From positions 1 to 22,929 of IMG/VR virus record IMGVR_UViG_3300014489_000146: 22,929 nt of DNA. One strand, given 5' to 3'. A model generated the notes under the pieces. That model saw only the letters and a program-made list of their open reading frames with translations. It had not been told where the DNA came from and made no database searches. The number at the start of each line of letters is the position of its first letter. Within the stretch, counting starts at the first letter, position 1. Below are positions 3,130-22,883 of this stretch, one piece after another. The translations under genes were made by a program, and so were the position numbers. Origin of the DNA: a virus.

Positions 3130-3348
3130 ATGTCCGTCGTCAACAAGGCCGTCCGCGCGCCCGCGTTCCGGACCTTCACTCTCGCTCAAATTGAAGAAGC
3201 CAGCGCCGATCAAAACGGCCTGTGCCTCGCCTGCGGCGCCTCGCGAGAATGTTGCGAGCCCGACGCCCGGAAATACCTCTGCGACAACTGCGGCCAGCAT
3301 CAAGTCTACGGCGCCGAGGAAATCGTGCTGATGGGATTGATGCGCTAG
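3130..3348 (+). CDS. Small Cys-rich (zinc-ribbon-like) protein (72 aa)
   Basis: The ATG at 3130 is preceded by GGAGAAACGAAA, a normal ribosome-binding distance; an upstream start overlapping the previous gene is less likely. Two CxxC pairs (CLAC near residue 32-35 and CDNC near 51-54) plus intervening cysteines in RECCEP suggest a single zinc-binding knuckle. The leading segment FRTFTLAQIEEASADQNGLC and following QHQVYGAEEIVLMGL occur in small phage proteins of unknown function. The TAG stop lies inside the first box of the 8-bp repeat array. Confidence 0.75.
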   Translation: MSVVNKAVRAPAFRTFTLAQIEEASADQNGLCLACGASRECCEPDARKYLCDNCGQHQVYGAEEIVLMGLMR

Positions 3349-3383
3349 TTCGCTATCACACTAGCTTGCTATCACGCTACCGA
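3344..3383. promoter_or_regulatory. Tandem 8-bp box array A, upstream of methyltransferase-ParB gene
   Basis: Five boxes begin at 3344, 3352, 3360, 3368 and 3376, an exact 8-bp period, with cores GCTA, GCTA, ACTA, GCTA and GCTA. The octamer GCTATCAC occurs twice (3352 and 3368). The array fills the gap between the small Cys-rich gene and the methyltransferase-ParB gene, 32 bases before its ATG. It matches the arrays flanking the parA-RHH operon. Inferred to be an operator or centromere-like site for the RHH protein. Confidence 0.65.
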
Positions 3384-3415: not shown

Positions 3416-5110
3416 ATGAAACCCGTCAAGACCAGGATTCCAGCCGACGTGCTGGCGATCCTCGCCCGCAGCACGATCACCGGCAACGTCCTGGTGCTGC
3501 CCGAACAACTCGACCGCGAAACCTACCTGCGCGTCGCCAAGACGCTGACCGCGGCGCGCGGCAAATGGGACCGCAAGGCCAAGGGCCATGTGTTCCCCTT
3601 CGACCCGCGCGAACTCATGGCCGACGCGGTTGAAGCCGGCGCCGTCGTCGATGCCAAAAAGACCCTGCAATTCTTCGAGACGCCGCCCGCCCTGGCCCGG
3701 CGCATGGTCGACCTCGCCCAGATCGCGCCCGGCAACTCCGCTCTGGAACCCTCGGCCGGCACCGGCCGCATCGTCCGCGAGCTGCTCGCCGCGCGCGCCG
3801 AGGTCCGCGCCGTCGAGGTCGAACCCGCCAACGTCGCAGCGCTGCGCGCGATCGGCGGCGACGGCGTGCTGCAGGTCAACGAGATGACGTTCGAAGACTT
3901 CAGCGCCTTCGCTCCGACATGCGGCGCCCTCTACGACGCGGTGGTGATGAATCCCCCGTTTTCGCACGACCGCGACAGCGACCATATCCGCATGGCCTGG
4001 AAGCATTTGGCCCCTGGCGGTCGCCTGGTGGCGATCTGCTCCGAAGGCCCGTTCTTCCGATCGGACCGTGCCGCCGCGTCGTTCCGCGAATGGCTGGGCT
4101 CGATCGACGCCTACACCGAAAAGCTGCCGCCCAACACGTTCCGCGACGCCGGTACCGGCGTCGCCACCCGCCTGATCGTCGCCACCGCCCCAGGCACCCG
4201 GTTGGAGCACATGCGCGATCGCGAACCCGAACCCGAGGCGACCGTCCGGAGCATCCCGCTGCGCGAGATCGACCCCGACCCCGACCAGCCGCGCAAGACG
4301 TTCACCCCATCGGAACTGAGCGAACTAGCCGCCTCCATCCGGGCCAACGGCTTGCTGCAACCGATCACGGTCCGGGCGGGTGGACCAAACGGCTACCTGA
4401 TCGTCGCCGGCGAGCGCCGCTACCGTGCCCACCTGGTCAACCGCGCCGCCACCATCCGCGCGATCGTCATCGAGCCGATCGACACCGCCGACGTCAGGGT
4501 CAAACAGATCATCGAGAACGACCAGCGCGCCGATGTGCCCCCGCTCGAACAGGCCCGCTCGTATCAGGCGCTGATGGACGAACAGGGTTGGACGCCGGCC
4601 GAACTCGGCCAGCGGATCGGCAAGGCCGCGCTCCGGATCACCGAGCGGACGGACCTGTTAAAGATCGCCCCCGAGTACCAGCAGCTTCTGGCCAGCGGCA
4701 ACCTCCGGCCGTCCGAAGGCACCGAACTGGCCCGGCTCTCGCCTCGCGGCCAGGTCACCTTGTTCAACGCCATCCGCGCCGGCTCCTGCAAGAGCTACGG
4801 CGACCTCCGCGCCTCCGCTTCCGCGCTGGTCAACGCCGAGGCCCAACTGACCCTGATGCCGCCCGACGCGCCACCGCCGCCCAGCGACGAAGACAGGCGG
4901 TTGGCCAGCAGCTTCGAGGCCAACGTCGAACGCATCGCGCTCATGCTGCACACCAGCATCCACGACAACCAGATCGTCGCCGTCCGCAAGGTCAGCCCAC
5001 ATCGCGCGGGCAATCTGGCGGACCTGTTCGGCCAGATGCAAAAGGATCTGCGGCGGATCGAGATCGCGCTGCGGGAAGCAGCGATTCAGGAGAGTTTCCT
5101 CGCCGCCTGA
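3416..5110 (+). CDS. Fusion protein: N6-adenine DNA methyltransferase plus ParB domain
   Basis: The 564-residue protein has two parts. Residues about 85-260 form a class I SAM-dependent methyltransferase with motif I EPSAGTG (111-117) and the catalytic NPPF tetrapeptide (179-182) typical of N6-adenine methylation. Residues about 278-355 form a ParB/Spo0J N-terminal domain (LREIDPDPDQPRKTF, then the CTP-binding-type motif GERRYRA at 332-338), followed by a helix-turn-helix region (about 391-415, TPAELGQRIGKAALRI) as in ParB DNA-binding cores. The C-terminus (about 490-564) is helical and may dimerise. The first 80 residues are a separate small domain. The usual phage arrangement is ParB first, so this order is less common. 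It is the last gene of the left operon, preceded by the 8-bp box array and followed by a strong hairpin. Target sequence is unknown. Confidence 0.88.
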   Translation: MKPVKTRIPADVLAILARSTITGNVLVLPEQLDRETYLRVAKTLTAARGKWDRKAKGHVFPFDPRELMADAVEAGAVVDAKKTLQFFETPPALARRMVDLAQIAPGNSALEPSAGTGRIVRELLAARAEVRAVEVEPANVAALRAIGGDGVLQVNEMTFEDFSAFAPTCGALYDAVVMNPPFSHDRDSDHIRMAWKHLAPGGRLVAICSEGPFFRSDRAAASFREWLGSIDAYTEKLPPNTFRDAGTGVATRLIVATAPGTRLEHMRDREPEPEATVRSIPLREIDPDPDQPRKTFTPSELSELAASIRANGLLQPITVRAGGPNGYLIVAGERRYRAHLVNRAATIRAIVIEPIDTADVRVKQIIENDQRADVPPLEQARSYQALMDEQGWTPAELGQRIGKAALRITERTDLLKIAPEYQQLLASGNLRPSEGTELARLSPRGQVTLFNAIRAGSCKSYGDLRASASALVNAEAQLTLMPPDAPPPPSDEDRRLASSFEANVERIALMLHTSIHDNQIVAVRKVSPHRAGNLADLFGQMQKDLRRIEIALREAAIQESFLAA

Positions 5111-5150: not shown

Positions 5151-5427
5151 TAACCCCCCCTCCCCAATTCCGCGGTAGGTAAAATTACACCCATGCACGG
5201 TCCCGGGAGGTGCGAGCGGGGGGGTTGAAACCCCCTATACCTAAACCTAAGGTGGGCCGACCATTCGGGTCATGGAGCAAGCAGACGCCGAAGCTCCGAC
5301 TTGGCATAGCGCAACCTTGCGTGCCATCGTCGCGCCAGGAATCAGTTATACGGCGGGTCCGCTGCCGGGAGTAAGGTCTCATAACGTCCTCATTTTCGAC
5401 GTGTCTAATTGCCAGAAAGGCATGAAA
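5151..5427. other. Noncoding gap before the exoprotein gene
   Basis: This gap contains C-tracts and a short perfect hairpin, GGGGGT at 5220-5225 and ACCCCC at 5230-5235 with a TGAA tetraloop. Just after it CCTA occurs three times within 16 bases (5234-5249). No convincing gene or promoter hexamer pair was seen. The frame of the exoprotein is open here back to an ATG at 5272, but the ribosome-binding evidence favours 5428 as its start. Confidence 0.35.
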
Positions 5428-8400
5428 ATGGCATCTCCCACGTCTGAAGACTTTCTGGTCGCCAGCGCAATGGCCTACGCGGAAAGCTTCAACAATATCA
5501 CGCTCGACGGGCTTCCAGGTCAGGCCGAGTCAGTTGATCCGTCAGCCGCGCAATGGAACATTTTGGACTATACGACTACCGCCGAGTTACAGGACGGCCT
5601 CTACGGGGTTGCCTACTATTCAAGCCAGACCGACCAGGCGATTATCGCTTTCGATGGCAACATACCATCGACAACGAGCAGCACACAGTTGTTTGGACCT
5701 CTGCTTGGTCTGGTTCGTCAGGTCAGTCCGAGCCAGATCCCGGCCTTCGTTGACGCGGAGACCTTCGCCGAGCAGGTCGCTGTCTACGCGTCCGACGTTA
5801 ATATCCCGCTCAACCAGATTTACGTCACGGGGAATTCGATCGGCGGCACCGAGGCTGAATATTTGGCAACTCAGTTGGGTCTGCAGGGCATGACCTTCGG
5901 TGGTTCCGGTCTGCCAGGGTACAGCGGGACCCAACTACAGCCCCCGGTCATTGACTACGTGGACACTGCCGACCCGATCGCCAACCTGGCGTCGGATACA
6001 ACTCAGAGCACCGGCGCTCTCAACAATTTTGCTCATGCGGGCCGAGTTATCGAGGAGCAGTCCCCAATCGGTGGCTCGGTTCTAGAACTATTTGGTAACG
6101 AGCTTGTAAATGCGTCGACCTTGTTGGCCAATCCTCAGGCGCTTAGTCTTCTTTCACTGACTAAGCTTTCGAAGGCAGTCGGCCAATTTGTCGTGCACAC
6201 TGACATTGATATTCTGCTGTCAAAGCAATACGGTTCGTTGACGAATTATGCCAATGACCTGCACCTTCAGATGCCGACACTGACATTTGCCTCGGCGCTC
6301 GAGTCGTCTGCTGGCATTTCGATGCTAGACGGACCTGGATCCGTGGTCGCGGCCTCCAACGGACAGCTCCCAAATTCTGATGTCGGTATCAACTCGGAAA
6401 CAGTAGATCCCGTCGCCGCTGCTCTGGGGCTCGATCCTCTGGAAATCCTGGAGAGCCTCGATGACCAACTTGGGGCAGCAGGTGACGCGGATCTCGAGCA
6501 GGCAACGGTTATCAATGCCGACAGCGCGGAGTCACCCTATTATTCAGTATCGATCGATACATCTGGTGCGTCACCCATCGTCACAGTTGTTCAAAATGCT
6601 GCTATATCGTTCGTGGATGATTCCGAGGATTTGCCCCTGGACCCCGGAACTGCGGTTATCACCTTGGACGCCACGTCCGGCCAACCTGATATTGAAGCCT
6701 ATACGGATACCACGACCGGGCTCACGACCCTGTTTCTGCCCGGCGGTAACGCGAGTGCGAATGCCGCAGACCTCACGATTGGTGAAGCGAGTGATCTGGT
6801 ACTGATCGGTGATCCGACAGTTTATCAAGGAACCATCCTCAGTTTCCTTGCGGGTGGCACCATCGATATGTTGGGCATCGGCACCGCGACCAGTGCCACA
6901 CTTGGCACCAACAATATGCTGACGGTGACAGGGGGTAGCAGCCCGATCACTCTCAATCTCGGTTCAACTCAGTACACCACCAATAGCTTCCTCATCGCAC
7001 CGGATGGCAGCGGAGGCACAGAGATTACCGCCGAGGACAACACGCAGCCGATCGCCTTCACCGGCATCAGCGAAACCCTGTTGGTCACGAACCCCGCTAA
7101 CCTGACCGGAGCAATCAGCGCGTTCGCTCCCGGTGACATCATCGACCTCGCGGGTATTGGCACAGCTACCGGTGCCGTCCTCGGAAACAACAACATACTC
7201 ACCGTGAATGAAAGCGGTGACACTTCTCTTTTGTTGCAGCTGGACCCATCTCAGACGTATGCCCCCAACGAATCCTTCCTAACCACTTCAGACGGTAACG
7301 GCGGTTCATTAATCACACCTTATTCAGTTACCATGACCGCCGGAGTAGAACCTCAAATCGTCAACGATGCAGGCGAATTCCTTAGCAACGGCACGATTTA
7401 CAGTGCCTCTGGATCGGTCATCAACTTCAATCTTCCTGCGTCTGCGTCGGGCGGCACCGTGACCGCTATTGGCGATAACGGGATCGTCGCCGGCCAACTA
7501 TCGGTTGTCAGCGGCACGCCTCCTAGTGGACAGATTTATGGGTTTGTTGATGATGCCGGTGAGGTCACAACATTCAACGGCGGTATTGCTGGATCTTTCA
7601 CTATTCCAATCCAGGTCAGTTCCGGTGGCGCAGTGGTCGGCGGTTATGAGTATCCTCTCATTCAAGGTCAATTCTTCCAACTTCAAGCGTTCGGATTCTT
7701 ATATGATAACGGAACATTTATGGTCATTGATCCTACAGGAGCGTCAAGCGCCGAGGCCGTTGGGGTCAACGATAACGGCGATGCGGTGGGGTGGTTTACC
7801 AACAATTCGGGCCCACGGTCCGGGTTCCTTTATTCTGGTGGAGCTTACACATCCATTGATGTGCCTGGTTCCACCAGCACATCCCCCGTTGGGATTGACG
7901 ATCAAGGGCAAATCGCTGGCACCTACACAGACAGTGCCGGTACACACGGATTTGTCTGGACTGCGGGAGTATATGGCACGATTAGCGCTCCCGCAGGTTC
8001 GACCGGCATTGATGTCATAGGCATTGATGAGCAGGGGCGGGTTTGGGGTTACTATTCCGGGGCGGATGGCAAGGGACATGCGTTTGCTTATTATGATGGG
8101 ACACTTACCCCGTTCCTTTCGGAATTCACCAGCGTCATCCCCACAGCGGTCAGTCCCGCCGGAGACGTTGTGGGGACGGAGATAACAGGCGGGAAGGAGC
8201 AAGGATTTGTCGCGACGACCGTCCAGAACGTCGCAGACCAATTGTCGTGCTTTGCATCTGGCACGAAGATCACGACACTGCGCGGCGATGTCTCTGTGGA
8301 ACATCTGGCTATTGGTGATTGCGTAATCACATCTAGTCGAATACCTTCCCTTGTAAAATGGATCGGGCATCGGCGGGTCAATTGTGCTCGTCATCCTAGA

Positions 8401-8850
8401 CCGCAGGCAGTTTGGCCAGTCCGGATTTCCGCCGATGCGTTTGGCACAGGCTTGCCGCAAAAAGACCTTTGGCTTTCACCTGATCACTCGGTTTATGTCG
8501 GGGACGTACTCATCCCTGTTAAGCACCTGATCAACGGCACGACTATCACGCAAATTCCTGTTGATCAGGTCACTTACTATCACGTCGAACTGGAAGAGCA
8601 TGACGTGCTGCTGGCCGAAGGGCTGCCAGCGGAATCCTATCTCGACACAGGCGACCGCTCCAACTTCGAGAACGATGGCAAGGTGATGCGGCTGTTTCCT
8701 GACTTCTCATCGCGAGCGCTCGACACAGCGACGTTGTGGGAAACCAAGGCCTGTGCCCCGCTGTTAGTGCACGGCCCTGAGCTTGAGGCCGCCCGCGCCG
8801 TTGTGAACGCCCAGGTACCGAAGATCACCCCCGCCGCCGTGGCGGCATAA
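5428..8850 (+). CDS. Large lipase-like / HAF-repeat / Hint_2 domain protein
   Basis: The preferred start at 5428 follows AGAAAGG by eight bases and gives 1140 residues; an in-frame ATG at 5272 would add 52 residues that do not look like a signal peptide. Residues about 1-330 resemble a lipase-type alpha/beta hydrolase, with nucleophile elbow GNSIGG near residue 135 and DTADPIAN following as the likely acid region. Two tandem beta-rich repeats of roughly 90 residues follow (about 448-630), then HAF-type repeats (about 680-930; GVNDNGDAVGW, GIDDQGQIAGTYTD). The C-terminus is a Hint_2 domain opening with CFASGTKI near 941 and containing LSPDHSVYVGD. Such proteins are presumably secreted without a cleaved signal and may self-process. 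Base composition is lower in GC than its neighbours, indicating separate acquisition. Substrate is unknown. Confidence 0.85.
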   Translation: MASPTSEDFLVASAMAYAESFNNITLDGLPGQAESVDPSAAQWNILDYTTTAELQDGLYGVAYYSSQTDQAIIAFDGNIPSTTSSTQLFGPLLGLVRQVSPSQIPAFVDAETFAEQVAVYASDVNIPLNQIYVTGNSIGGTEAEYLATQLGLQGMTFGGSGLPGYSGTQLQPPVIDYVDTADPIANLASDTTQSTGALNNFAHAGRVIEEQSPIGGSVLELFGNELVNASTLLANPQALSLLSLTKLSKAVGQFVVHTDIDILLSKQYGSLTNYANDLHLQMPTLTFASALESSAGISMLDGPGSVVAASNGQLPNSDVGINSETVDPVAAALGLDPLEILESLDDQLGAAGDADLEQATVINADSAESPYYSVSIDTSGASPIVTVVQNAAISFVDDSEDLPLDPGTAVITLDATSGQPDIEAYTDTTTGLTTLFLPGGNASANAADLTIGEASDLVLIGDPTVYQGTILSFLAGGTIDMLGIGTATSATLGTNNMLTVTGGSSPITLNLGSTQYTTNSFLIAPDGSGGTEITAEDNTQPIAFTGISETLLVTNPANLTGAISAFAPGDIIDLAGIGTATGAVLGNNNILTVNESGDTSLLLQLDPSQTYAPNESFLTTSDGNGGSLITPYSVTMTAGVEPQIVNDAGEFLSNGTIYSASGSVINFNLPASASGGTVTAIGDNGIVAGQLSVVSGTPPSGQIYGFVDDAGEVTTFNGGIAGSFTIPIQVSSGGAVVGGYEYPLIQGQFFQLQAFGFLYDNGTFMVIDPTGASSAEAVGVNDNGDAVGWFTNNSGPRSGFLYSGGAYTSIDVPGSTSTSPVGIDDQGQIAGTYTDSAGTHGFVWTAGVYGTISAPAGSTGIDVIGIDEQGRVWGYYSGADGKGHAFAYYDGTLTPFLSEFTSVIPTAVSPAGDVVGTEITGGKEQGFVATTVQNVADQLSCFASGTKITTLRGDVSVEHLAIGDCVITSSRIPSLVKWIGHRRVNCARHPRPQAVWPVRISADAFGTGLPQKDLWLSPDHSVYVGDVLIPVKHLINGTTITQIPVDQVTYYHVELEEHDVLLAEGLPAESYLDTGDRSNFENDGKVMRLFPDFSSRALDTATLWETKACAPLLVHGPELEAARAVVNAQVPKITPAAVAA
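6769..7320 (+). repeat. Two tandem protein-coding repeats inside the exoprotein
   Basis: Two copies of a roughly 90-residue unit are encoded at about 6769-7030 and 7048-7320. Matching pieces are IDMLGIGTATSATLGTNNML in the first and IDLAGIGTATGAVLGNNNIL in the second, each followed by LTV and ending in SFL, two or three residues, DG, a Gly-rich turn and IT. The DNA has diverged more than the protein pattern, so the duplication is not recent. Confidence 0.75.
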
Positions 8851-13537: not shown

Positions 13538-14185
13538 TGGCCATCCCGAGACCCACGGCAGCGACGCTATCACGACGTGGGATCGGCATAAAATAACTAA
13601 GTTGTTATAGAGGTGTGATTTTTCAACCTGTGCGTGTATCAACTCACGCCGCGCCACCGCCCCATCTCAACGCCCCGGCCGGAGTCGGGCGTGCCGAGGA
13701 TGGCGTTGCCCTGGCTACCGTACGCGGCGGCGTCGTTATCGACCGGCCCGACGTGGATCACGGCCGACCGCACGCACCCACCGCTCCAGCGTTTTCAACC
13801 TGCGCCAACCGCTTCACACACACCGCCAGCACCTCGGCCGGGCCTGCTCGGGTCGCGTAGCGTGCTCGCCTCGGCGATCGCGAGCGCTGAGGCCCACACC
13901 TGTCCGCCGCCTTCCTCCGCCACACGTCAGAGCCGGGGGGCCGGTAGCAACGGTACCGAAAGTTTGAGTCAGACCGGAGTCCGGGCCAAGCAGCAAGGTC
14001 CGTAGGACCGCATCCGACCCAACTCGGCCGCCAGACCGCCGATCAGCCGTTCTCGGAACCGGACGTACAGCGCCACACCGTGCCGACTGCTGTGCGTCGT
14101 CTCCGGACGGCACCTCGTATTGCGTCAAACTCCAAGACCATACATTGTCAATATTAGATATCTTGCGATCAGTGGAGACATGTTC
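13538..14185. other. Long noncoding gap with AT-rich dyad and coding-like remnants
   Basis: Near the left end an AT-rich dyad, ATAAC at 13593-13597 and GTTAT at 13604-13608, probably belongs to the promoter region of the DUF6362-like gene. From about 13830 to 14090 the minus strand reads like protein in two alternating frames (for example LYVRFRERLIGGLAAELGRM in one and VWASALAIAEASTLRDPSRP in another) broken by stops, which suggests a decayed gene. I could not name the family. The right end is AT-richer and leads into the HEPN-like gene. Confidence 0.35.
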
Positions 14186-14866
14186 ATGCTTATCGCGATG
14201 CCAAACTGGCCGCCGTTCTCTCCGACGGAGTATGCCACGGATATGCCTGACGAGTTGCTCGAACTCCTGCCTTTGTTACACGGATCGTGCATTATCGTGC
14301 AATCCGCCGTCTACGACCACGCACTTTTAGCCTATATGAAGAGCAGTTCGGAGTTCAATCTTAAGATTCGCGAGTCATATCTCGCTGCAGTTATTAATCA
14401 GGTAGAGATAAGCTTGACGAAATCTTTGGTGCTCTCTTTGGCGTCCCTCTTCGACTCCGCCCCCGCAACTGTTAACATCCGCCGCGCGCTGAACGTAGCC
14501 GTGCGAGATCAATGGTTACCCATCCTGGAGCCGCGCCACAGTCTTCGAAGTGAAGATGTATCGCGGAAGAGAGATCGTTTAATCCGAATGCAGAGACGCA
14601 TAAAGCGGGCTCCTTTGAAAGGTGCCATTGAGCGCGTCACAGATTTTCGAAATAAGGGTGTCGCTCATGTTGACAAAGATCAAGGCCTGGACTTCAAAAT
14701 ACCTACATACGGAGACACTACACTAACACTAGCCGCCGCTGCTAATATTGTTGTGTCTCTTCTTTCATATTTAACCTTCCGTCGCGCCGGCATAAGAGCA
14801 TTACACACCCAAGCCAATCAACAGGCGGAGCTGCTTGGGCGGGCGATTCAACCACTTACAAGCTAG
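14186..14866 (+). CDS. HEPN-like (AbiU2-type) protein, candidate anti-phage cargo
   Basis: The start at 14186 is chosen because GGAG at 14174-14177 lies eight bases upstream; ATGs at 14180 and 14120 are alternatives. The 226-residue protein is helical and contains TDFRNKGVAHVDKDQG near residues 152-167. Its R-N-K-x-x-A-H arrangement (R155 to H161) is the Rx4-6H motif of HEPN ribonuclease domains, most like AbiU2-type abortive-infection proteins. An earlier segment, AVINQVEISLTKSLVLSLAS, fits the first HEPN helix. Base composition is clearly lower in GC and codon use differs from the neighbours, which points to separate transfer. It stands alone, without a nucleotidyltransferase or antitoxin partner. 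Function is inferred. Confidence 0.6.
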   Translation: MLIAMPNWPPFSPTEYATDMPDELLELLPLLHGSCIIVQSAVYDHALLAYMKSSSEFNLKIRESYLAAVINQVEISLTKSLVLSLASLFDSAPATVNIRRALNVAVRDQWLPILEPRHSLRSEDVSRKRDRLIRMQRRIKRAPLKGAIERVTDFRNKGVAHVDKDQGLDFKIPTYGDTTLTLAAAANIVVSLLSYLTFRRAGIRALHTQANQQAELLGRAIQPLTS

Positions 14867-15106: not shown

Positions 15107-15154
15107 GCTAGCTTGATACCAAACTACGTTGCTACGCAGCTATCCCGCTATCGT
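15107..15154. promoter_or_regulatory. Tandem 8-bp box array B at the RHH gene end, candidate centromere
   Basis: Six boxes begin at 15107, 15115, 15123, 15131, 15139 and 15147, an exact 8-bp period, with cores GCTA, GATA, ACTA, GCTA, GCTA and GCTA. The RHH stop codon (15140-15142 on the minus strand) lies within the fifth box. As it lies downstream of the parA-RHH operon rather than at a promoter, it is a good candidate partition site (parC/parS). Confidence 0.65.
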
Positions 15155-15388
15155 CGGCCGATTGTAGTGGTCGAACAGCAGGTTCACCGCCTCGATCAAC
15201 AGATCATGCGAGGTCTTGCCCTCGGCGATCGCCAGCATCTTCAACTGGCGCCAGGCCTCCGGTTCCAGGCGCAGAGTCTGACCGCGGCGCACTCGTTCCC
15301 CATTCCCCGACGCCGCGGGCGCCGGCGCCGGTGCGGCCTTGTTCGCCCGCAGATCAGTGAGTGTCAGTGCCGCGCGCGTTTTGGCCAT
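15140..15388 (-). CDS. Ribbon-helix-helix partition partner protein (ParG-like)
   Basis: The 82-residue protein has a flexible basic and Ala/Pro-rich N-terminus (1-35) and a ribbon-helix-helix fold at about 36-76: strand RGQTLRLEPE, helix EAWRQLKMLAIAEG, turn KTSH and second helix DLLIEAVNLLFDHY. This matches the ParG/Omega type of centromere-binding protein, whose flexible N-terminus stimulates ParA ATPase. Its ATG lies within the end of parA (25-base overlap), so the two are translationally coupled. Such proteins bind tandem 7-8-bp repeats and repress their own operon, which fits the 8-bp arrays on both sides of this operon. Specific binding to those boxes is inference. Confidence 0.8.
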   Translation of the reverse strand: MAKTRAALTLTDLRANKAAPAPAPAASGNGERVRRGQTLRLEPEAWRQLKMLAIAEGKTSHDLLIEAVNLLFDHYNRPTIAG

Positions 15389-16020
15389 AGAATCCCCTCC
15401 ATGTGCTTGAACAGTTTCCGCAGTTCCCGCGCGGCCTTGCCGTCCGGTTCGAACTCTGTGACAGACCGGCCGTCGATCAGGGCATGCGCGAACGCCTGCC
15501 GGTTGCCGATCGAGACTTCGGCCACCGGCAGGCGGTAGGCTTCAAGGGCGGCGCGCGCCTCGATCGTCAGGGTGTTTTCGCCGATACCGCGACCCGCCGG
15601 GACCGCGTTCAGCACGATCATCGTGCCGGCTCTCGGCCGCGCCGCCAGCATGACCTCGACCGTCGCCGCGATTGCTCTCAGGTCAAGAATCCCCGGCCGC
15701 GTCGGGATCAGCACCATGTCGGCCAGCCGGGCGATATCGGCGGTATCGGCCTCGACGCTCGGCCGCGTGTCCACCACAACCAGATCGATGCCATCCGCTC
15801 GGGCCGCGTCCAGCACCGCCGGCACCCGTTTGACCGCGCACTCGACCAACTGAGGATCGTCCGTCTTGCGAACCCGCCACCAGTCTCCGGCGCTGCGTTG
15901 CGGATCCGTGTCCACCAACAGGACCCGGCGACCGGTTGAGGCGGCGAGAACCGCCAGGTGAACGGCGAGGGTGGTCTTTCCGGTGCCGCCCTTGCGGGCC
16001 AGCAGCGCGACTGTCTGCAT
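15364..16020 (-). CDS. parA: ParA-family partition ATPase (ParF type)
   Basis: The 218-residue protein has the deviant Walker A motif ARKGGTGKTT (8-17), the Walker A' segment LLVDTDPQ (34-41) and Walker B LVVVDTRP (80-87). Length and lack of an N-terminal HTH place it in the short ParF/Delta class, which partners an RHH protein instead of a classical ParB. It moves plasmid or phage DNA by forming ATP-dependent gradients or filaments on the nucleoid. The start MQTVALLARKG is preferred; a TTG start at 16077 would translate through the 8-bp box array and is unlikely. The ATG is only seven bases from that array, so repressor bound there would occlude transcription or translation. Confidence 0.92.
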   Translation of the reverse strand: MQTVALLARKGGTGKTTLAVHLAVLAASTGRRVLLVDTDPQRSAGDWWRVRKTDDPQLVECAVKRVPAVLDAARADGIDLVVVDTRPSVEADTADIARLADMVLIPTRPGILDLRAIAATVEVMLAARPRAGTMIVLNAVPAGRGIGENTLTIEARAALEAYRLPVAEVSIGNRQAFAHALIDGRSVTEFEPDGKAARELRKLFKHMEGILWPKRARH

Positions 16021-16027
16021 CCAGATT

Positions 16028-16067
16028 GCTACCTTGCTACCAGAATAGCGCTGTAGCACGATATCGG
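16028..16067 (-). promoter_or_regulatory. Tandem 8-bp box array C upstream of parA
   Basis: Five boxes begin at 16028, 16036, 16044, 16052 and 16060 with cores GCTA, GCTA, AATA, TGTA and GATA. On the minus strand GCTA and GGTA cores keep the same 8-bp phase. The array ends seven bases before the parA ATG, where an autoregulatory operator is expected. Flanking hexamers for a promoter are poor. Confidence 0.6.
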
Positions 16068-20177: not shown

Positions 20178-20390
20178 ATGCTGATCGCGCTCAACACGCT
20201 GGATTTCAGCCTCCCGGTCGTTCGCCGCATCCCGCCGAAGCCGCGTGCCGGCAAGGCGCTGCAAGACAGCATCGCCGCACGCCGGCTACCAAACTGGCGT
20301 CCGGTGCCATTCGGCGCCGCAGGCCCGGAACCCCGTTCCGAGGTGACAGATCATGCACCGTCTCACGAAGTCGAAAGCGCGACGGCATGA
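20178..20390 (+). CDS. Small hypothetical protein (70 aa), first of the integrase operon
   Basis: The ATG at 20178 follows GAAGGA by about nine bases. The protein is basic in the middle (RRIPPKPRAGKALQDSIAAR) with a charged C-terminus, and no domain was recognised. Its stop overlaps the start of the next gene (ATGA at 20387-20390). It is preceded by the cI-type operator, so it should be repressed in the integrated state. Confidence 0.6.
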   Translation: MLIALNTLDFSLPVVRRIPPKPRAGKALQDSIAARRLPNWRPVPFGAAGPEPRSEVTDHAPSHEVESATA

Positions 20391-21273: not shown

Positions 21274-21605
21274 CAGGCAAACGTCTTACCCGTGAACAAC
21301 TGCCTCACTGGCCGCGCTACATGACACGCGACCTTGCAGCGGCCTATGTTGGCGTGTCCGAAACCGTATTCATCGCTGAGGTCGAGAGGGGTTGGTGGCC
21401 GCTCCCGCGCCGGCGAGGCGCGAAATCGACTCTGCTGACCTGGGATCGTGTTCTACTTGACCAAGAGGCCGATCGCGAGGCCGGATTAGGAACGCCGGAG
21501 CAGACATGGGGTGCTGCGCCGGTAGTAACCGACAACGAAGTCAGGAACCGATTCAGTGCCAAGACCCCGACAAGACGGGCCGAAGCGGGTCGTCAAACAC
21601 CTTAA
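21270..21605 (+). CDS. Excisionase-like (AlpA/MerR-type) small DNA-binding protein
   Basis: The 111-residue protein begins at a GTG that overlaps the preceding TGA. It carries MTRDLAAAYVGVSETVFIAE, VERGWWPLPRRRGAKS and a closing TLLTWDRVLLDQEAD, the wHTH pattern of AlpA/Xis-type recombination directionality factors. Its place directly upstream of the integrase, with a 50-base overlap, supports excisionase function. Regulatory action at the integrase promoter is also possible. The C-terminal 30 residues are probably disordered and overlap the integrase start. Confidence 0.78.
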   Translation: MTGKRLTREQLPHWPRYMTRDLAAAYVGVSETVFIAEVERGWWPLPRRRGAKSTLLTWDRVLLDQEADREAGLGTPEQTWGAAPVVTDNEVRNRFSAKTPTRRAEAGRQTP

Positions 21606-22728
21606 GGACGGCACCACCTGGGCCTATCTCTACGACCGGCGCACCGGCGCGGCGATCGGCAAGGAGCAGGTCATCGCAACGGCCGCGGTTCGACCGGGCA
21701 CGATGTCCTCGCTCATCGCGGCGTATCGAGAAACAGCCCGCTTTAAGTCGAGGAAGCCCGGCACCCGTGAGATATACGGGCGTACACTGGATTACCTGGA
21801 CACCACGATCGGCGACCTTCCAATCCGCGCCATCGCGCCGGCCACGGTCCAGACCATCAAAGAAGCGATGCAGGATAAGCCCTCGAAGGCCAACCAAGTG
21901 CTGGCCCTGCTGTCCATCCTGTTCAAGTTGGCGATCCGGCAGGGAGTGATCCAGGTCAACCCGGCGGCCGAGCCAGGTAAGCTCGAAGTCAGGCGCCGCG
22001 TCGAGGTCTGGACCCGCGAGGAAGAAGAGCGGCATCTCTCCGCGTTTCGACCGCGGCTGCAACTCTTGTTCGGCCTGATGCTCTACACGCTGCAACGGAT
22101 GTCGGATTGCCTGGTCATGACGATCAACCAGATTTCTGAGCGGGATGGCCGTCTCTATCTGGTGCTGCGTCAACACAAGACCGATGAACTCGTTGGCATC
22201 CCGATTCATAACCGCCTCGACGCAATGCTGCGCGCTCGCCTGGCAGAAGACGTGTGGGTCCGACCGTCGGAAAAGAGCGGCAGGAAGTCGCAGGTGAAGA
22301 GCCTTCTTCTGGTACCGAGTCCGCGTGGCTTGCAATGGTCGCGGCGGAATGCATCGCGGGCCTGGGACCACGACCAGGGGACCGCGGACGAGACGCTGAC
22401 GAAGGAACTGAAATCGGCCGGCTGGAACGATGCTCGGATCAAGGAGGAGCTGGCGCAACGCCACAGGCAGCGTCGGGATCTGCGGCGCACCGGGGTAGTC
22501 CGAATGGCTGAAGGAGGCGCCACGACGCCTCAGATCGCCGCGGTGAGCGGGCATTCGATCGACTACTGCCAGCGCATCGTCGACACGTACCTGCCACGCC
22601 GAACCGAGGTCGCGTTAGGCGGAATTGAGTCGTGGGAGGCCGCGGAAAAATCCGGCCCGCGCGCTATTCGTCTTTCGGACGGGGCGGCATTGGAATCTCA
22701 GGCTCAACAGCGCCGGGACCGAGGTTGA
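21556..22728 (+). CDS. int: Tyrosine-family site-specific integrase
   Basis: The 390-residue protein starts at GTG 21556, with AGGA nine bases upstream. The N-terminal arm- and core-binding region runs to about residue 140 (YGRTLDYLDTTIGDLPIRAI). In the catalytic domain I see R181 (LYTLQRMSD), K208 (LRQHKTD), the box II segment RRDLRRTG with R310, H333 (VSGHS) and the tyrosine Y345 (DTYLPRR). In HxxR terms the usual histidine of box II is replaced by R307. The element's attachment site is the tRNA-Lys 3' end downstream. It is the last gene of the coupled operon controlled by the cI-type operator, and the gene lies entirely inside the element. Confidence 0.93.
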   Translation: MPRPRQDGPKRVVKHLKDGTTWAYLYDRRTGAAIGKEQVIATAAVRPGTMSSLIAAYRETARFKSRKPGTREIYGRTLDYLDTTIGDLPIRAIAPATVQTIKEAMQDKPSKANQVLALLSILFKLAIRQGVIQVNPAAEPGKLEVRRRVEVWTREEEERHLSAFRPRLQLLFGLMLYTLQRMSDCLVMTINQISERDGRLYLVLRQHKTDELVGIPIHNRLDAMLRARLAEDVWVRPSEKSGRKSQVKSLLLVPSPRGLQWSRRNASRAWDHDQGTADETLTKELKSAGWNDARIKEELAQRHRQRRDLRRTGVVRMAEGGATTPQIAAVSGHSIDYCQRIVDTYLPRRTEVALGGIESWEAAEKSGPRAIRLSDGAALESQAQQRRDRG

Positions 22729-22807: not shown

Positions 22808-22883
22808 TGGTGAGCCCGGTGGGACTCGAACCCACGGCCCCAAGATTAAAAGTCTCGTGCTCTACCAACTGAGCTACGGGCTC
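22808..22883 (-). tRNA. tRNA-Lys (anticodon TTT)
   Basis: The minus strand folds as a complete 76-base tRNA including an encoded CCA end. The acceptor pairs GAGCCCG with CGGGCTC, the D-arm carries AGCTCAGTTGGTAGAGC, the anticodon loop ACTTTTAAT has anticodon TTT, and the T-arm is GTGGG, TTCGAGT, CCCAC. Its 3' end faces the integrase, the expected geometry for an element using the tRNA 3' end as attachment site. Confidence 0.97.

Follow-up and report, generated by a model that had tools for sequence, protein, structure and literature searches.

The window analysed here, a stretch of 22 929 nt of virus DNA (IMG/VR record IMGVR_UViG_3300014489_000146), carries a parA-rhh operon with tandem 8-bp boxes on both sides and further boxes of the same kind 12 kb away. 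The locus raises two questions: which protein binds the boxes and what purpose the three arrays serve. In our main reading, with a probability of roughly 0.8, the operon is a type Ib-like partition cassette, its ribbon-helix-helix (RHH) protein binds the two flanking arrays, A and B, and the same protein has a further, third site in the distant array, C.

Arrays of phased boxes

Array A (positions 15107-15152, six boxes) spans the 3′-end of rhh, the genes on its two sides being convergent; array B (16028-16065, five boxes) ends ∼8 bp before the parA start codon; array C (3344-3381, five boxes) is situated in a putative operon, directly 5′ of a gene for a methyltransferase-ParB fusion protein. 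All three were confirmed on the sequence, in exact 8-bp phase, at the places reported in the first-pass annotation. The box cores are GCTAGC, GATACC, ACTACG, GCTACG, GCTATC and GCTATC in array A; GCTACC, GCTACC, AATAGC, TGTAGC and GATATC in array B; GCTAGT, GCTATC, ACTAGC, GCTATC and GCTACC in array C. The boxes have a symmetric core GCTAGC around a central TA, with one half usually degenerate, and neighboring cores are separated by two bases. The motif RCTA, suggested earlier, fits all boxes of array C and five of the six boxes of array A, but only two of the five in array B, where orientation is mixed. The remaining boxes are GATA variants or have TAGC on the plus strand, so that the motif is properly described as a symmetric 6-mer centred on TA. 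Array A covers the last codons of rhh and supplies its TAG stop; the TAG stop of a small gene upstream of array C sits in the first box of that array.

The first-pass annotation had asked for a comparison of box counts with shuffled sequence; against simulated sequence the arrays prove to be non-random. We scanned for phased boxes defined by a TA centre with a G/A-C or G-C/T half on either side. In the whole window, three or more of five phased boxes were found only around 3344, 15107 and 16028, with 0.06 such places per 22.9 kb expected under a first-order Markov model; four or more phased boxes did not occur in any of 200 first-order Markov simulations. When the matrix was derived from one or two arrays, the held-out array or arrays outranked all other places of the window in every cross-validation, and they also exceeded the maximum of 200 third-order simulations. 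An origin of the arrays by chance was ruled out by the Markov simulations and the cross-validated matrices. For array C taken by itself, the absence of conservation in relatives (see below) could speak for a chance resemblance; still, with a matrix from A and B only, array C is the top place in the window with a score of 34.2, while 200 simulated windows gave a mean of 7.5 and a maximum of 16.6, which makes such a resemblance hardly conceivable.

The parA-rhh operon

Gene parA (15364-16020, minus strand) encodes a 218-aa Walker-type partition ATPase with the sequence KGGTGKTT and no N-terminal HTH. Gene rhh (15140-15388, minus strand) follows directly and shares 25 bases with the 3′-end of parA; its product, an RHH protein of 82 aa, has the recognition strand RGQTLRL and a disordered N-tail. 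The ParA domain matches are to AAA_31/CbiA; against NF041546 (ParA_partition) the protein scored 175.5 bits, under the curated cut-off of 180, and it is close to this family without being a formal member. The nearest solved structures are TP228 ParF (4dzz) and a ParA chain (5u1g), both matched over the full length with E-value ∼1e-16; the alignment with the 206-aa TP228 ParF runs end to end (E-value 1.9e-16).

The RHH protein matches PF20605 (Antitox_RHH, E-value 3e-11), and its GQTLRL strand is invariant among aligned members of the clade described below. A low-confidence structure model (mean pLDDT 63.5) has two helices after the strand, and residues 1-33 in it mostly have pLDDT <50. A Foldseek search with this weak model gave no significant matches: the first was ParG (1p94, E-value 1.6), and the best ones were ParG and Arc-type proteins, all with E-value >1. 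Profile searches of the window proteins gave no match to the MetJ family.

In type Ib partition modules parA is likewise followed by a gene for a small RHH protein (PMC5016525). Along with this order, the window has a small ParA with a deviant Walker A motif and no N-terminal HTH, a small RHH protein encoded right after parA and having, in the low-confidence model, a flexible N-tail, and short tandem repeats at the par operon that are kept in six of six clade members. A type II toxin-antitoxin system would have a toxin gene in one operon with the RHH antitoxin; the parA-rhh operon contains no toxin gene, and the partner of the RHH protein is ParA. Outside the operon an HEPN AbiU2-like gene (14120-14866), with a possible abortive-infection function, is convergent with rhh, and array A lies between the two.

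Conservation of arrays A and B

The clade of ParA-RHH operons used for comparison has six members: the window, L083 and L082 (ParA ∼75% identical to that of the window), L162 (p546-7, a plasmid of Roseomonas haemaphysalidis), L301/L317 (a genome in the family sampled around Rhodopila) and L308. Each of the six operons has two arrays, one preceding parA and the other located either where rhh ends or beyond it. Counterparts of array B were seen upstream of parA in L083, L082, L162, L301 and L308, and counterparts of array A downstream of rhh in L083, L082, L308 and L301, with a weaker one in L162. Locus L308, found through its RHH gene alone, is a held-out success with strong arrays on both sides (scores 25.3 and 31.6); p546-7 and L301 have arrays of lower score (15.9-19.3), level with or barely exceeding the simulated maxima (16-18). 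The exact three-box TAGC array occurs a single time, before parA, in the 4.9-Mb genome that holds p546-7 (G371). A third place in L162 (14689-14728), inside a hypothetical gene, scored 18.0 with the window matrix, the simulated maximum being 17.7.

The scan of related elements proposed in the first-pass annotation has thus found both arrays in every operon of the clade, and the 8-bp phase, the loss of which in homologous elements was named there as grounds for rejecting the idea, is conserved. The additional claim that array B is the centromere did not hold in this form: conservation is the same for array A and thus gives B no preference over A as centromere. Judging by position and conservation, array B is probably both operator and centromere, and array A is probably a centromere.

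Cassette relatives are small plasmids and virus-like contigs, with Acetobacteraceae as the best-supported hosts. No arrays were found near solitary chromosomal RHH homologues, which keep the GQTLRL strand without ParA; such homologues were observed in Acetobacteraceae genomes (L318, L319, L320 and L316). As the arrays travel with intact parA-rhh in six of six cases and are absent near solitary RHH homologues, the best reading is that the RHH protein is the likely binder of the boxes. In a collection-wide scan for four TAGC boxes, only the L083 contig (L242) had both this ParA and this RHH type among the matches listed. Decayed parA-rhh remnants, with frames fused, parts missing and no arrays, were seen at two loci (L299 and L307) of one Acetobacteraceae genome (G210).

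One may ask whether the arrays are merely operators in an autoregulatory circuit of the RHH protein, with parA-rhh being no partition system at all. Such a circuit would agree with array B adjoining the parA start, with the antitoxin-like name of the RHH Pfam family and with the apparent integration of the element at a tRNA gene. It would not account for the conservation of array A, which in the window lies between convergent 3′-ends and is unable to control the par promoter, nor would one expect relatives that are small plasmids or an operon without a toxin gene; we consider it improbable.

Period of 8 bp across the ParA family

Upstream of parA, a set of 82 dereplicated ParA loci has a conspicuous period of 8 (mean z 1.34, with z >3 in 21 loci). 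The period persists in the ∼80 loci that are left without the clade of the window, with a mean z of 1.29 (p 6e-7) on the upstream side of parA and of 1.06 (p 3e-6) on the downstream side, and in this set period 8 is enriched above every other period in the range 5-15. The box sequence itself is lineage-specific, e.g. TTGCAA in L091, RNCAT in L095 and an ATC-type box in L114; repeats that diverge in sequence have been described for homologous parFG systems (PMC2262945). Given a period that is family-wide and boxes that are lineage-specific, the arrays appear to be no peculiarity of the window but the usual centromere/operator in this ParA-RHH family.

Array C and arrays at distant genes

The gene next to array C (3416-5110, plus strand) encodes a 564-aa methyltransferase-ParB fusion with ParB_N (E-value 4e-22), HTH_ParB and Methyltransf_12 domains. 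Upstream of the array there is a small Cys-rich ORF (3130-3348, plus strand), the one with its stop codon in the first box, which has no Pfam match. Homologues of this ORF precede the methyltransferase-ParB gene also in L166 and L168, where the gene product is 66% and 60% identical, respectively, to that of the window; a 66% identical homologue is present in contig G001. We looked for conservation of array C at its gene and found no boxes in the homologous gaps of these two relatives, L166 and L168. Within our sample, array C is therefore a private acquisition; by its score it is bona fide despite non-conservation. No third place scored as an array in the L083 contig, L082 or L308.

With its ParB HTH domain and its gene adjoining array C, the methyltransferase-ParB protein was itself a candidate binder of the boxes. 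This candidate was rejected on the evidence of the complete plasmid p546-7, which has the boxes but not the gene, while L166 and L168 have the gene and no boxes there. Moreover, tandem sites spaced by 7-8 bp are a pattern of RHH proteins. Binding by the fusion protein instead of the RHH protein is, in our estimate, very improbable.

A further question is what the RHH protein, as the likely binder, would do at array C. The array could serve solely as a third centromere cluster, in which case it would be by accident that the methyltransferase-ParB gene comes next. In pSM19035, at least four contiguous repeats suffice for ParA stimulation (PMC9499535). In the window no array has fewer than five boxes (six in A, five in B), and the five of C are contiguous. 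A scan restricted to sigma-70 type promoters found none at the arrays, array C included, which agrees with a centromere, as do the relatives without C at this gene. On the other hand, array C is placed exactly in the short gap before a gene within an operon, and distal arrays on other plasmids are also intergenic (L325 at 14263 and L322 at 9628). A purely centromeric array C is possible but doubtful; because of its position we slightly favour a role as operator or roadblock, with the limit that only one contig carries array C at a methyltransferase-ParB gene.

Distal arrays of their own box were found on several other complete ParA-RHH plasmids. The array of L325 lies 3 kb away in an intergenic gap and scored 25.0 against a null maximum of 17.8; that of L322, also in an intergenic gap, is ∼1 kb past rhh. 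In L323 and L324, distal arrays precede other RHH-coding genes (scores 25.0 and 28.2, null maxima 17.6 and 16.8). The same ACGT/CGTA boxes stand in these two plasmids before parA, a CopG-RelE operon and another RHH gene (L323 at 15830 and 17391, L324 at 6346 and 4772), which suggests one regulon shared by several RHH proteins, each a candidate binder. An automatic test for distal arrays in 15 elements supported arrays outside the par region for L323, L324 and L325, with a crude matrix that missed the window's own array C (p 0.18). The match of L321 is a second copy of its own par region and that of L327 a second ParA-RHH operon; L326 came to the same nominal p value as the supported cases but showed no clear boxes on reading. 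The boxes of L328 and L329, at a comparable place, are too weak to claim.

Proposed mechanism

The arrays, the array statistics, the conservation with parA-rhh and the protein families were established directly; from these we infer binding, repression, partition and the role of array C. One RHH dimer would occupy each 8-bp box, with dimers coating arrays A and B side by side. At array B, next to the parA start, the RHH protein would repress parA-rhh, and the coated arrays A and B would make up the partition complex. The N-tail of the RHH protein would stimulate the ATPase of nucleoid-bound ParA, and ParA would move the complex on the nucleoid, so sharing copies of the element among daughter cells while it is extrachromosomal. 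Array C, as an operator or roadblock within its operon, would match expression of the methyltransferase-ParB gene to the RHH level and could possibly serve as an additional centromere cluster as well.

Comparison with known systems

Symmetric 8-bp boxes in tandem are known for MetJ, the RHH dimers of which bind tandem met boxes; MetJ, however, is a metabolic repressor without a ParA partner. In par2 of pB171, clusters of binding sites are present on both sides of the parA-parB operon, and we know of no third remote cluster there. The window resembles par2 in the clusters flanking the par operon, with different repeats. The order in the par2 construct is parC1, parA, parB, parC2 (PMC4270457).

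Systems with an architecture and a mode of action like those proposed for the window cassette are TP228, pMET1 and pSM19035 (PMC5016525, PMC2262945, PMC9499535). TP228 parFGH and pMET1 parFG share with it a small ParA of the Walker type, a small RHH protein encoded next and short tandem repeats at the operon; the window differs in its box (GCTAGC), in having arrays on both sides of the operon and in the further array 12 kb away. The omega protein of pSM19035 has tandem 7-bp repeats as its binding sites, and these cover three promoters: that of the omega gene, that of the ParA gene and that of copS, a copy-number gene (PMC9499535, PMC4498918). Common to this plasmid and the window is one RHH protein accompanied by repeats at its own gene, at that for ParA and also at a remote one, and in pSM19035 partition is in this way linked with further functions. 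The repeats of pSM19035 delta-omega are non-palindromic and the genes are transcribed separately, whereas in the window the 8-bp boxes are symmetric and parA and rhh share an operon. The remote target is copS in pSM19035 and, putatively, the methyltransferase-ParB gene in the window.

The first-pass annotation knew of no described system with this combination, but omega serves partition, its own gene and the distant copS (PMC9499535, PMC4498918). Its proposal that one regulator sets partition, its own operon and a distant operon stands in so far as array C shares the boxes of A and B; it is weakened by the lack of conservation of C at its gene. In terms of an omega-like regulon, an array at a distant operon is ranked top by the matrix from A and B, and L166 and L168 lack this array at their methyltransferase-ParB genes. 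The cassette is of a known kind, and an omega-like regulon is plausible for it.

For a ParA-RHH clade with members among environmental virus contigs and plasmids of Acetobacteraceae, the analysis identifies the probable centromere/operator boxes, and it shows that sequence alone is enough to recognize arrays in 8-bp phase throughout the ParA family. What makes the locus of interest is the putative methyltransferase-ParB target, together with the hint of recurring distal arrays on related plasmids: should array C and its parallels have a function, RHH proteins that couple partition with remote operons would be common and not a curiosity of one Gram-positive plasmid. At somewhat less than even odds, one could generalize that in small alphaproteobacterial plasmids and in phage-like elements the RHH partition proteins are element-wide regulators, with arrays of their own box inside unrelated operons coupling segregation to other maintenance genes, and with distal arrays quickly gained and lost.

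The element

The window also encodes an HK97-type portal protein, an HNH endonuclease and a tyrosine integrase. A tRNA-Lys gene (22808-22883, minus strand) is located just past the integrase gene (21556-22728). The integrase beside this tRNA gene, along with the portal and HNH genes, points to an integrating phage-like or satellite-like element, and attachment site and flanking host DNA probably make up the right end of the window. As the integrase gene adjoins the tRNA gene, the element may be mostly integrated, a state in which partition is not needed.

Between the methyltransferase-ParB and portal genes there is a 1192-aa open frame (5272-8850) with a C-terminal Hint_2 domain (E-value 1e-44). 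A 70-aa frame at 20178-20390, with no Pfam match for the resemblance, is similar by eye to the start of a 470-aa ParB-like protein of L083 (3-1412), as if the ParB-like gene were broken in the window in comparison with L083.
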